DNA of 47,384 bases from the NCBI GenBank assembly GCA_020351835.1, contig CP070669.1, forward strand, positions 935,714-983,097. Direction: 5' to 3'. The DNA comes from Nitrospirota bacterium. GTDB taxonomy: Bacteria > Nitrospirota > Thermodesulfovibrionia > Thermodesulfovibrionales > BMS3Bbin05. Of this stretch, positions 2,274 through 7,143 are shown one piece after another. The notes under the pieces are model-generated. The model was not told where the DNA came from. It saw only the letters and a program-made list of their open reading frames with translations, and ran no database searches. A program made the position numbers and the translations under genes. Within the stretch, counting starts at the first letter, position 1, and every line of letters begins with the position of its first letter.

Positions 2274-3881
2274 ATGGACCCTATACTATCAACCGATATT
2301 AAAGAAAAACTTATAGAGGAGTTTGCTTCTCTAAGCGGAAACGTAGATATCCATGTTTATACCGCGAAGGGCATTAATGATAAATATAACGAGTATGCAG
2401 TGAAGATATGTGAAGAGTTCTCCGGACTTAGTGAGAAGATAAGCTATGAAGAGCATGATCTGGACAGTGATGAAGCAAGGAGATACGGGGTAAAGTCTTC
2501 ACCTTCGATCCTTTTCAGCCCGGATAGATACGGGATAATGATTATGGGCGCTCCTTTGGGCGAAGAAGGACGTTCTTTTGTCGCAGCTATTGTGATGGTA
2601 TCGTCAGGCAAAGGTATCCTGTCAGAGAGCTCCGATGAAAGGCTCAGGGGACTTAAGGATAAACGAGAGATCATGGTGTTCGTGACACCCACTTGACCTA
2701 TCTGCCCCCAGCAGGTTGCTTATGGGGTATCATCGGCGATAGCGGTTCCGGACAAGATCTCGGTTAAGGTGATAGAGGCCGGGGAGAACCGTGAACTGGC
2801 TAAGAAGTTCGCAGTATCCTCCGTACCGCAGACAGTGGTTAACGGGAACATTGTAGCTGTAAGCCTTCAGCCTGAGGAAGCATTTGTTGATGCCGTGATG
2901 TCGGGAGCCCCCGTTGAGATAAAGCTACCTGAAAGGACCGGTGAGATGGTCGAGAAGGATATGGTGGTGATCGGGGCCGGCCCGGCCGGTCTTACCGCGG
3001 CGATATATGCTGCGCGCTCCGGTATGAGCACAGTGGTGCTGGACAGGGCAAATATAGGGGGGCAGGTGGCGATCACACCTGTGGTAGAGAACTATCCCGG
3101 ATATACCAGGATCCCGGGAAAGACACTGACGGACATGATGGCACAGCAAGCGCTGGAGTATTCGGAGATCAGGCAGGGAGAAGAGGTCACTGACGTTAAA
3201 AAGAACACCGACGGGACTTTCGACCTGACGACTACTTCATCAAGATACAGGGCGAGGTGCATAATCATTGCTACAGGAGCTGAGCATACCAAACTTGGAG
3301 TGCCGGGCGAGAAGCGGTTCTTTGGAAGAGGGGTGAGCTACTGTGCAACGTGCGACGGATATTTTTTCAAGGATGATAAGAAAGTTATAATCGTCGGGGG
3401 TGGCAGCACTGCGGCTATAGAGGCGCTGTACCTCGAGAGTATAGGTGTAGATATCACAATGGTCCACAGGAGGAGCAAGCTCAGAGCCGAACAAAAACTG
3501 CAGGAGAGCATAAAGGAAAGGAACATACCGATAATATGGGATTCTGTAGTTGAGGAGATAAAGGGTGATGAGTTGGTCAGGTCAGTAAGGCTCAAGAACT
3601 TAAAGAACGGGGAATCGAAAGAGATGAAGGTAGACGGCGTCTTTATAGCGGTAGGCTATGATCCCGTGAACGGGCTGGCAAAGAAGATAGGTCTGGAGCT
3701 GACCGATGACGGATATATAAAAGTTGATGAGCAGCACAGGACCTCGGTTGAAGGCATTTATGCTGCAGGCGATATTACAGGTGGTATAAAGCAGATAGTT
3801 ACTGCAGTAGGTCAGGGTTCTGTCGCTGCAATAAATGCATTCGAGGACAATATGAAGCCTTACTGGAAGGAAGGCTCATAA
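2274..3881 (+). CDS. AhpF/thioredoxin-reductase-like flavoprotein with in-frame UGA, probable selenocysteine at residue 141
   Basis: Read through a single TGA (2694-2696), the gene encodes 535 residues, close to AhpF length (about 520). Residues 1-230 form two thioredoxin folds. The first has no CxxC but keeps a cis-Pro loop (SSPS). The second has TPT-U-PIC-PQQ, with UGA exactly at the first cysteine of the CxxC and Cys144 as resolving residue, and a cis-Pro loop SSVPQ near 185. Residues about 230-535 are a thioredoxin reductase: FAD motif GAGPAG (234-239), active-site CATC (Cys357/Cys360), NADPH motif VGGGS and a final AAGD motif. The expected role is NAD(P)H-dependent reduction of a peroxiredoxin or thioredoxin-like partner in the cytosol. 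No ahpC lies nearby. A sense-to-stop mutation is the alternative, but the frame on both sides and the recoding hairpin favour Sec. The SD before ATG 2274 is weak. Confidence 0.85.
2694..2729 (+). promoter_or_regulatory. Probable bacterial SECIS element just after the UGA codon
   Basis: A stem-loop begins six bases after the UGA. Bases 2703-2708 (TGCCCC) pair with 2724-2729 (GGGGTA), allowing one G-U. An upper stem AGC/GCT (2710-2712 with 2718-2720) closes an AGGTT apical loop. GGU in the loop begins 17 bases after UGA, inside the range usual for bacterial SECIS hairpins, and the top GC-AGGUU-GC closely resembles the E. coli fdhF element (GC-AGGUCU-GC, from memory). This would bind SelB and direct Sec insertion. 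Confidence 0.72.
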
Positions 3882-3897: not shown

Positions 3898-4122
3898 ATG
3901 GACCGCTATGAATATCAGATAACGGGGCATTCCGCAGAATCTTTCGACCGGGTTAACTATTTTTGTACAGAAGAGGGAAAATGCGGGCTTAATGACGTGC
4001 CCGGCGACCAGTTGCAGGCATTTATGGGGATTCTTAATGAACAGGGGCAGGAGGGTTGGGAGCTTGTGCAGCTTTTTTTCGGAGCGCAGGGTGTGCTTGC
4101 GTTCTGGAAGCGCAGGTCATAA
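3898..4122 (+). CDS. Small DUF4177-like protein
   Basis: A 74-aa protein with a good SD (GGAGG six bases before the ATG), 16 bases after the flavoprotein gene and probably co-transcribed with it. It starts MDRYEYQI and contains LNEQGQEGWELVQLFF followed by LAFWKRR. This is the pattern of DUF4177-type proteins, small alpha/beta proteins of unknown function with a conserved GWEL-V core. Cys residues occur at about positions 23 and 29. No catalytic motif is evident. Confidence 0.65.
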   Translation: MDRYEYQITGHSAESFDRVNYFCTEEGKCGLNDVPGDQLQAFMGILNEQGQEGWELVQLFFGAQGVLAFWKRRS

Positions 4123-5005: not shown

Positions 5006-6064
5006 ATGCTAAGTCATATCGAAAATAAGGTTGCCGGCGGCAAGAGGCTTTCTGGCGAGGAAGGTCTTGAGCTTCTCGGGTCCGATGACCTTTTCAGGCT
5101 CGGTAGGCTGGCCGACACGGTATGCAGAAGGATAAACGGCAGGAAGGCATACTACGTCCGGAACAGGCATATCAACCCTACCAATATATGTTTGAACAGA
5201 TGCGGTTTTTGTGCTTTCAGCCGTTCTAAAGGGGAAGAGGGCGCATATGAGCTGAGCCTTGACGAGATAGCCGAGCGTGTCAGGAGCGCACCCGGCGGGA
5301 CGAAAGAGATCCATATAGTAGGCGGGCTGCATCCTGATTGGCCCTTTGAGCATTACCTTGATATTGTAAGAACTATTAAGAGGGTATCTCCAGGGGTACA
5401 TGTCAAGGCATTTACGGCGGTAGAGATAGACCACTTCTCCAGGATCAGTGGACGTTCTATTGAAGATACGCTTAGAGTGCTTAAAGACAATGGTCTTGAC
5501 GCCATGCCGGGAGGCGGTGCGGAGATATTTTCACAGCCGACACGCGATAAATTGTGTCCGGAGAAGATCTCCGGCGAGAGATGGCTTGAGGTCCATGAGG
5601 CAGCCCACGGCGCAGGTATAAAGACGAACGCAACCATACTATACGGTCATGTTGAATCGTTCGAGGACCGCATAGATCACCTGATGAGGTTGAGGAAGCT
5701 CCAGGACCGTACCGGGGGATTTCAGGCCTTCATCCCTCTTTCATATCATCCTAAGAACACGGAGATGGGAGGGGAATATCCTTCCGCGATCGATGATCTT
5801 AAGACGATCGCTGTGAGCCGATTGATGCTGGACAATATCCCCCACATAAAGGCCTACTGGATAATGCTTGGGGAGAAGATCTCACAGCTTGCGCTGCTCT
5901 TTGGTGCCGATGATATAGACGGTACTGTAATAGAGGAGAAGATAACTCACTCCGCCGGTGCATTGACGGGTGAGAGTTTAACGGGAGAGCAGATGGCCCA
6001 TCTTATAAGGCGGGCCGGAAAGGTACCGGTCGAGCGCGACGCGCTCTACAGGACCATCGAGTGA
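5006..6064 (+). CDS. mqnE: Aminofutalosine synthase MqnE (radical SAM)
   Basis: Couples the enolpyruvyl product of MqnA to SAM-derived adenosyl radical chemistry to make aminofutalosine, an early step of the futalosine route to menaquinone. The 352-aa protein carries the radical-SAM CxxxCxxC (Cys62, 66, 69), HIVGGLHPDWPFEHYLD, FTAVEIDHFSR, PGGGAEIF and LQDRTGGFQAFIPLS, which distinguish MqnE from MqnC and CofH. It overlaps mqnC by four bases, the usual pairing. mqnA, mqnB and mqnD are not in the window. The start is ATG 5006 without an SD. Confidence 0.93.
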   Translation: MLSHIENKVAGGKRLSGEEGLELLGSDDLFRLGRLADTVCRRINGRKAYYVRNRHINPTNICLNRCGFCAFSRSKGEEGAYELSLDEIAERVRSAPGGTKEIHIVGGLHPDWPFEHYLDIVRTIKRVSPGVHVKAFTAVEIDHFSRISGRSIEDTLRVLKDNGLDAMPGGGAEIFSQPTRDKLCPEKISGERWLEVHEAAHGAGIKTNATILYGHVESFEDRIDHLMRLRKLQDRTGGFQAFIPLSYHPKNTEMGGEYPSAIDDLKTIAVSRLMLDNIPHIKAYWIMLGEKISQLALLFGADDIDGTVIEEKITHSAGALTGESLTGEQMAHLIRRAGKVPVERDALYRTIE

Positions 6065-7143
6065 TCGATAGCATGACAGCTAAAAGGATAGATAAAAAAG
6101 AGGCTCTTGAGCTACTCGGGAAGGGAGACCTTCTTGACTTAGGTGAGCGCGCGGACAAGATAAGGCAGGGACTTCATCCCGAAGAAGTCGTTACATTTAT
6201 CGTGGACAGGAACATAAACTATACGAACGTCTGCCTTAACAAATGCCGTTTCTGCGCTTTCTACAGGGACAGGTCCGCTCCTGATGCGTATGTTCTGACA
6301 AAGGACCAGTTGTTCGATAAGATCGTAGAGACTATCGACCAGGGTGGCACGCAGATCCTGATACAGGGGGGGTTGCATCCGGACCTAGATATTCACTACT
6401 ACGTTGATATGCTGAGGTCCATTAAGAAGAGGTTCGATATAGATGTACATGGATTTTCACCCCCGGAGATAACGTATATAGCAGAAAGATCCGACCTGAC
6501 CGTAAGAGAGACCCTTGAGGTCCTGGGTGAGGCCGGGCTGGATTCGGTCCCCGGCGGAGGCGCCGAGATACTGTCTGACAGGGTCAGGGAGCAATTGAGC
6601 CCGAAGAAGATCAGAACCGCCGAATGGCTGAAGGTGATGGAAGAGGCCCACGGGCTTGGGATGAGGACGACGGCCACGATGATGTTCGGAAGCGTAGAGA
6701 CCGAAATGGACATCATCGAGCATCTTGATGCTATCAGGGGCCTTCAGGACAGGACCGGAGGTTTTACTGCGTTTATTCCGTGGAGCTTTCAGAGCCTTAA
6801 TACAGAGATAGCTAAAAGTGCGGGTAAGAAAAGCAGGTCTAAGGGCTCATTTGATCAGAGCACAGGGGTTGATTATCTGAAAATCCTTGCAGTATCAAGG
6901 ATTTATCTTGATAATATCAGGAACTTACAGGCATCCTGGGTCACTCAGGGGCTGAAGATGGCACAGGTAGCCCTGAGGTTCGGGGCAAACGATTTCGGCT
7001 CTACGATGATAGAGGAAAATGTCGTCAGAGCTGCCGGAGTAAGCTACAGGGTAACGAAAGAGGACATAATCGAGGCTATAAGGGCATCAGGTTTCAGCCC
7101 TGCGCAGAGGAACACAAAATACCATATTATCAAAAGGTTTTAG
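6061..7143 (+). CDS. mqnC: Cyclic dehypoxanthinyl futalosine synthase MqnC (radical SAM)
   Basis: Cyclises dehypoxanthine futalosine in menaquinone synthesis. The 360-aa frame shows YTNVCLNKCRFCAFYRD (Cys58, 62, 65 bind the cluster), GGTQILIQGGLHPDLDIHYY, HGFSPPEITYI, PGGGAEILSDRVR, TTATMMFGSVET and LQDRTGGFTAFIPWSFQ, all MqnC hallmarks. The frame can start at GTG 6061, overlapping the mqnE stop, or at ATG 6073; neither has a strong SD, consistent with translational coupling to mqnE. A run of basic residues (about 255-262, KKSRSKGS) is an insertion relative to the family core. Confidence 0.93.
   Translation: MIDSMTAKRIDKKEALELLGKGDLLDLGERADKIRQGLHPEEVVTFIVDRNINYTNVCLNKCRFCAFYRDRSAPDAYVLTKDQLFDKIVETIDQGGTQILIQGGLHPDLDIHYYVDMLRSIKKRFDIDVHGFSPPEITYIAERSDLTVRETLEVLGEAGLDSVPGGGAEILSDRVREQLSPKKIRTAEWLKVMEEAHGLGMRTTATMMFGSVETEMDIIEHLDAIRGLQDRTGGFTAFIPWSFQSLNTEIAKSAGKKSRSKGSFDQSTGVDYLKILAVSRIYLDNIRNLQASWVTQGLKMAQVALRFGANDFGSTMIEENVVRAAGVSYRVTKEDIIEAIRASGFSPAQRNTKYHIIKRF

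Follow-up and report, generated by a model that had tools for sequence, protein, structure and literature searches.

Electron transfer in Salmonella AhpF is described as running from NADH through FAD and the Cys345-Cys348 pair to Cys129-Cys132, and from there to AhpC (PMC8395237). A stand-alone selenoprotein corresponding to the AhpF N-terminal domain has already been listed in selenoproteome surveys (PMC1794560, PMC9312934, PMC13188914), as an earlier note on the DNA studied here had correctly stated. Its known holders include Carboxydothermus (ABB15282.1), Symbiobacterium and some Asgard archaea (PMC1794560, PMC9312934, PMC13188914, PMC11227280). Our analysis of a 47,384-nucleotide stretch of a Nitrospirota genome (the window) points with high confidence to a gene for a full-length disulfide reductase containing selenocysteine (Sec), predicted from sequence. 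Like the known N-terminal-domain selenoprotein, the predicted product carries Sec as the first residue of a UxxC motif in a double thioredoxin domain like that of protein disulfide oxidoreductases (PDOs). The known protein is listed under a 209-position model, whereas the window gene joins this domain to a thioredoxin-reductase (TrxR) flavoprotein in a chain of 535 aa. The AhpF proteins of E. coli and Salmonella (TIGR03140; PDB 4o5q and 1hyu) share with it the order of domains and the CxxC of the flavoprotein domain, and the place of their N-terminal-domain CxxC is taken by UxxC in the window reductase. It differs from them in its identity of only 26%, in having Sec for Cys and in having no adjoining ahpC.

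Architecture and probable function

The reductase gene occupies positions 2274-3881 of the window (+), an assignment based on its frame, Pfam, homologues and profiles. The first half of the encoded N-terminal domain is a thioredoxin fold without a CxxC (2274-2618, +), recognized from PDO alignments and a structure model. The second half bears the UxxC (2655-2909, +) and is supported by PDO alignments and by Pfam Thioredoxin_3 at residues 132-208, a match that spans the TGA. The FAD/NAD(P)-binding thioredoxin-reductase domain follows (2955-3839, +), with Pfam Pyr_redox_2 at residues 228-515 and the thioredoxin-disulfide reductase model TIGR01292 scoring 350.6 bits over residues 229-522, above its cut-off of 343.45; of three relatives scored with this model, two fall just under the cut-off, at 333-334 bits. 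This domain contains the flavin-proximal disulfide C357-A-T-C360 (3342-3353, +), both Cys of which are invariant in our alignment A1. For the N-terminal 210 residues, PDOs are the closest match and the AhpF N-terminal domain comes far behind. The PDO model TIGR02187 gives 157.5 bits over residues 8-210, below its cut-off of 185, and residue 141 aligns with the first Cys of the CPYC in the PDO second fold. An AlphaFold2 model of the reductase has a mean pLDDT of 85. Its top whole-length fold matches are the intact AhpF structures 1hyu and 4o5q, with a global TM of about 0.4 and a high rmsd, as would follow from a different placement of the domains.

The gene had previously been described as AhpF-type. 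The architecture agrees with this description, since a double thioredoxin domain and a TrxR-like flavoprotein are joined in one chain, as in AhpF. The family name itself does not hold: the AhpF model TIGR03140 scores 295.9 bits over residues 5-528 against a cut-off of 502.9, and the N-terminal half is nearest to PDOs. Because it lies so far below the NCBI AhpF cut-off, the reductase is an AhpF-like PDO-TrxR fusion and is not filed as AhpF.

The product would be an NAD(P)H-dependent disulfide reductase built from a PDO-like double thioredoxin domain and a thioredoxin-reductase flavoprotein. By position, C357/C360 and U141/C144 are likely the counterparts of the two Salmonella AhpF pairs. By analogy with the biochemistry of AhpF and thioredoxin reductase, electrons would pass from NAD(P)H through FAD and C357/C360 to a selenenylsulfide between U141 and C144. 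The exposed Sec141 would then attack a client disulfide or selenenylsulfide, and C144 would resolve the intermediate.

On the same analogy, the main client is probably a peroxiredoxin, although our confidence in this step is modest. A less probable but credible reading leaves the reductase a selenoprotein and differs in the client step only, with the N-terminal domain serving as a general protein-disulfide reductase of PDO or thioredoxin-like type. The PDO-like N-terminal half, far from that of AhpF, and the score under the AhpF cut-off are consistent with such a role, as are the lack of an adjoining ahpC in the neighborhoods read and the 15 of 74 reductase-bearing genomes without an AhpC match at the threshold used. 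Against it stand the single-chain AhpF architecture, the AhpF structures as best full-length fold match, and the presence of an AhpC-type peroxiredoxin in the other 59 of the 74 genomes. A peroxiredoxin client remains our favored reading.

The genome has an AhpC-type peroxiredoxin gene at positions 1107730-1108122 of contig C1, with an in-frame TGA at the position of the peroxidatic Cys (FTFV-U-ATEF). This gene (at about 1,107,700) lies some 170 kb from the reductase gene and scores below the cut-offs of the NCBI AhpC and PrxU models, and its one-TGA homologues are widespread across the phylum. As a hypothesis, we propose its product as the leading client candidate. The pairing has no firmer standing because TGA AhpC genes are common alongside Cys reductases and the AhpC of the congener has Cys. 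For a specific co-occurrence of Sec reductase and Sec AhpC, these same observations were decisive: TGA AhpC is present in most Cys-reductase genomes, and the idea was dropped. In this congener, the nearest relative, the Sec reductase is paired with a Cys AhpC. It is conceivable, although we consider it unlikely, that the two proteins form an all-selenium relay from flavin to peroxide by selenenylsulfide exchange, and that the reductase repeatedly changed from Cys to Sec because its partner was already a selenoprotein.

The reductase gene is flanked by a NUDIX hydrolase (1711-2184, +) and, immediately downstream, by a small DUF4177 protein (3898-4122, +); by neighborhood comparison both occupy the same places in the congener, the BMS3Bbin05 relative. 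Beyond the congener, we found no conserved operon around the reductase gene; in the neighborhoods read, DUF4177 was not seen beside it outside the congener, and no ahpC was found next to it. Elsewhere in the window, positions 5006-7143 encode a pair of neighboring radical SAM proteins whose C-terminal regions are of the CofH/MqnC kind, perhaps for futalosine-type menaquinone synthesis.

The in-frame TGA and its decoding

The gene is one frame of 535 codons which, with TGA read as U, yields 535 residues and a terminal stop. Its sole internal stop is the TGA at 2694-2696 (+), codon 141, in the first position of the UxxC motif TPT-U-PIC. Cys144 (2703-2705, +), the resolving partner in UPIC, is invariant in alignment A1. 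The earlier note had placed the frame, the TGA and the motif correctly, and had rightly expected ordinary annotation to produce two proteins: a standard ORF caller returns 2274-2696 (140 aa) and 2769-3881 (370 aa), the latter from a GTG start at 2769.

This output is what one would expect if the TGA were a true stop and the locus a broken or split reductase, yielding a 140-aa N-terminal piece and, from a start of its own, a thioredoxin reductase of 370 aa; elsewhere, PDO and TrxR do occur as independent proteins. We nevertheless regard a true stop as highly improbable. The predicted GTG start is not conserved, being ATT in a 68%-identical relative. Protein constraint acts on the stretch between the TGA and this GTG, which includes the resolving Cys, and a cut at the TGA would split the thioredoxin fold. 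Moreover, seven genomes have TGA at this one codon alone, through at least five changes. When codons 142-229 of the window gene and the congener are compared, pN is 0.22 and pS 0.75 in frame, and shifted frames of the window gene contain 7-9 stops in this stretch. The codons downstream of the TGA are thus under protein constraint, and translation very probably continues past it.

In our main reading, SelB and tRNA-Sec would decode UGA141 as selenocysteine under the direction of a hairpin whose start lies no more than 10 nt from this codon. The genome, a single contig of 2.29 Mb, has selC (71.8 bits, a tRNA-Sec with UCA anticodon), selA (612.6 bits), selB (374.9 bits) and selD (369.1 bits, with its own in-frame TGA). 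The search for these four genes proposed in the earlier note therefore found every one, and the absence of machinery that it had named as grounds for abandoning Sec did not occur. selA was also found in all five other TGA-reductase genomes tested. Because it is present in 41 of 46 genomes, most Cys-reductase genomes included, the machinery is a requirement for Sec that does not tell the two kinds of genome apart.

The predicted SECIS hairpin (2703-2729, +), identified by folding and a SECIS model, has a GGU apical loop at 2714-2716, 17 nt past the TGA, a 4-bp upper stem and an energy of -12.4 kcal/mol by folding, or -11.7 kcal/mol as scored with the SECIS model. The published bacterial model specifies a loop of 3-9 nt, an upper stem of 4-16 bp, a spacing of 16-37 nt, G in the first two loop positions and an MFE <= -7.5 (PMC13188914), and the hairpin falls within all of these limits. 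The model fits 7/7 TGA reductase genes (spacing 16-22 nt) versus 13/68 Cys genes, with a Fisher p of 4e-5 that is indicative only because the sequences are related. It also fits the four other TGA genes examined in the genome (AhpC, TlpA-like, SelD and Fdh). As background, 3.1% of the 1853 TGA trinucleotides in the window fit the model, and of the 15 TGAs that lie within long double-open window frames, only the one at 2694 is followed by a hairpin of this kind.

Folding energy by itself is less informative. Against dinucleotide shuffles the hairpin does not stand out (z = -1.0), the 51 nt that follow the TGA have an unremarkable raw MFE, and 51-nt folding energies compared with synonymous shuffles did not separate TGA and Cys genes one by one; the separation is obtained by the structured descriptor and group comparisons only. 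No Rfam match was found near the TGA. The 5' arm of the hairpin is partly dictated by conserved Gln codons common to Cys homologues. In codons 145-152, 7/8 are identical to the 68%-identical relative versus a background of 36% (P about 0.008); this synonymous conservation is weak evidence because Cys relatives also average 59% there.

Other genes of this genome also carry in-frame TGAs. SelD (C1:269046-269969) has one together with a SECIS-like hairpin, and formate dehydrogenase alpha (C1:1924448-1926448) has one at CARL-U-H, the canonical site, likewise with a SECIS-like hairpin. A TlpA-like thioredoxin-fold protein (C1:2088613-2088945) combines an in-frame TGA, in the context FWATW-U-SWC, with a SECIS-like hairpin.

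The frame would also be open if a code change or suppression caused the TGA to be read as another amino acid, such as Trp or Cys. We consider this extremely improbable, given the tRNA-Sec with UCA anticodon, SelA and SelB, the TGAs that SelD and Fdh carry at established Sec positions, and the finding that 0/14 other TGAs in long double-open window frames have a SECIS-like hairpin.

Recurrence of the TGA among homologues

At site 141, 75 homologues have TGA in seven cases, TGT in 36 and TGC in 32, with no other codon. The closest relative (bacterium BMS3Bbin05) is 68% identical and likewise has TGA here, also in a TPT-U-P-x-C context. When 396 genomes of the phylum were searched, the full-length one-TGA homologues fetched all had their TGA at this codon. 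The pattern PTUPxCP(Q/H) occurs in 4/176 genomes of the order, with one homologue additional, and its reversed control gave none. The alignment suggested in the earlier note thus shows TGA in 7 and Cys in 68, and, whereas close relatives with TGT or TGC were to count against Sec, the nearest one has TGA. Since the same codon is TGA in the 68%-identical relative and in five more distant homologues, its presence here is more than chance. Two further TGA matches (G174 and G156) were set aside, as in each the thioredoxin and thioredoxin-reductase stretches are separate and the stop lies at another place. In one Cys-type homologue, L042 (G300:C264:1312-2901), a TAA interrupts the frame at another position, perhaps through an assembly error or because the copy is decaying.

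When the 75 proteins are placed in a maximum-likelihood tree in which the TGA residue of the seven is masked, at least five changes between Sec and Cys are needed within one phylum, all forced by well-supported branches. This was a quick tree with SH-aLRT support only, in which L053 forms a long branch. In two cases, Sec versions adjoin Cys versions at 76-81% identity. Repeated change from Cys to Sec appears the simplest reading, because Cys is found in 68/75 homologues and around each Sec branch.

An error in sequencing or assembly, turning TGC or TGT into TGA, would take a single nucleotide, and several relatives are draft assemblies; its probability is nonetheless negligible, with TGA in seven assemblies, divergent flanks and a downstream hairpin. 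The genomes are assemblies, and it is by recurrence only that such error is excluded. The proposal that Sec takes the place of the first redox Cys is accordingly supported by the machinery, the exchange of TGA and Cys among homologues and the predicted SECIS.

Comparison with known systems

The accessible part of a 2026 inventory of 119 families contains no fusion flavoprotein of AhpF or TrxR type that bears Sec at this position. The fused Sec reductase is thus new relative to published selenium-protein lists as far as these were accessible, although the known N-terminal-domain family, ABB15282.1 for one, may conceivably already include a fused member. The form that the earlier note called rare is no singleton, with TGA in 7/75 homologues in the phylum. 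The full-length form is probably under-counted because automatic annotation splits such genes. With five or more switches between the two residues at this codon, two of them beside Cys versions that are 76-81% identical, the group provides matched natural pairs in which the benefit of Sec could be measured.

Among related proteins, PDOs (PDB 2hls, 1a8l and 2ywm) resemble the N-terminal 210 residues, Sec141 coinciding with the leading Cys of the second-fold CPYC, whereas the first fold of the window reductase lacks a CxxC and the whole is fused to TrxR. Low-Mr thioredoxin reductase (TIGR01292) corresponds to the C-terminal 295 residues, which score above the cut-off; in contrast to it, the window reductase has an extra N-terminal PDO-like domain with its own UxxC. 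The Sec thioredoxin reductase of mammals is a high-Mr TrxR with Sec in a C-terminal GCUG tail. Both are NADPH flavoprotein relays ending in Sec, but in the window reductase Sec would sit in an N-terminal thioredoxin fold on a low-Mr scaffold. If this prediction is true, the fused Sec flavoprotein reductase would be a low-Mr natural counterpart of mammalian Sec thioredoxin reductase.
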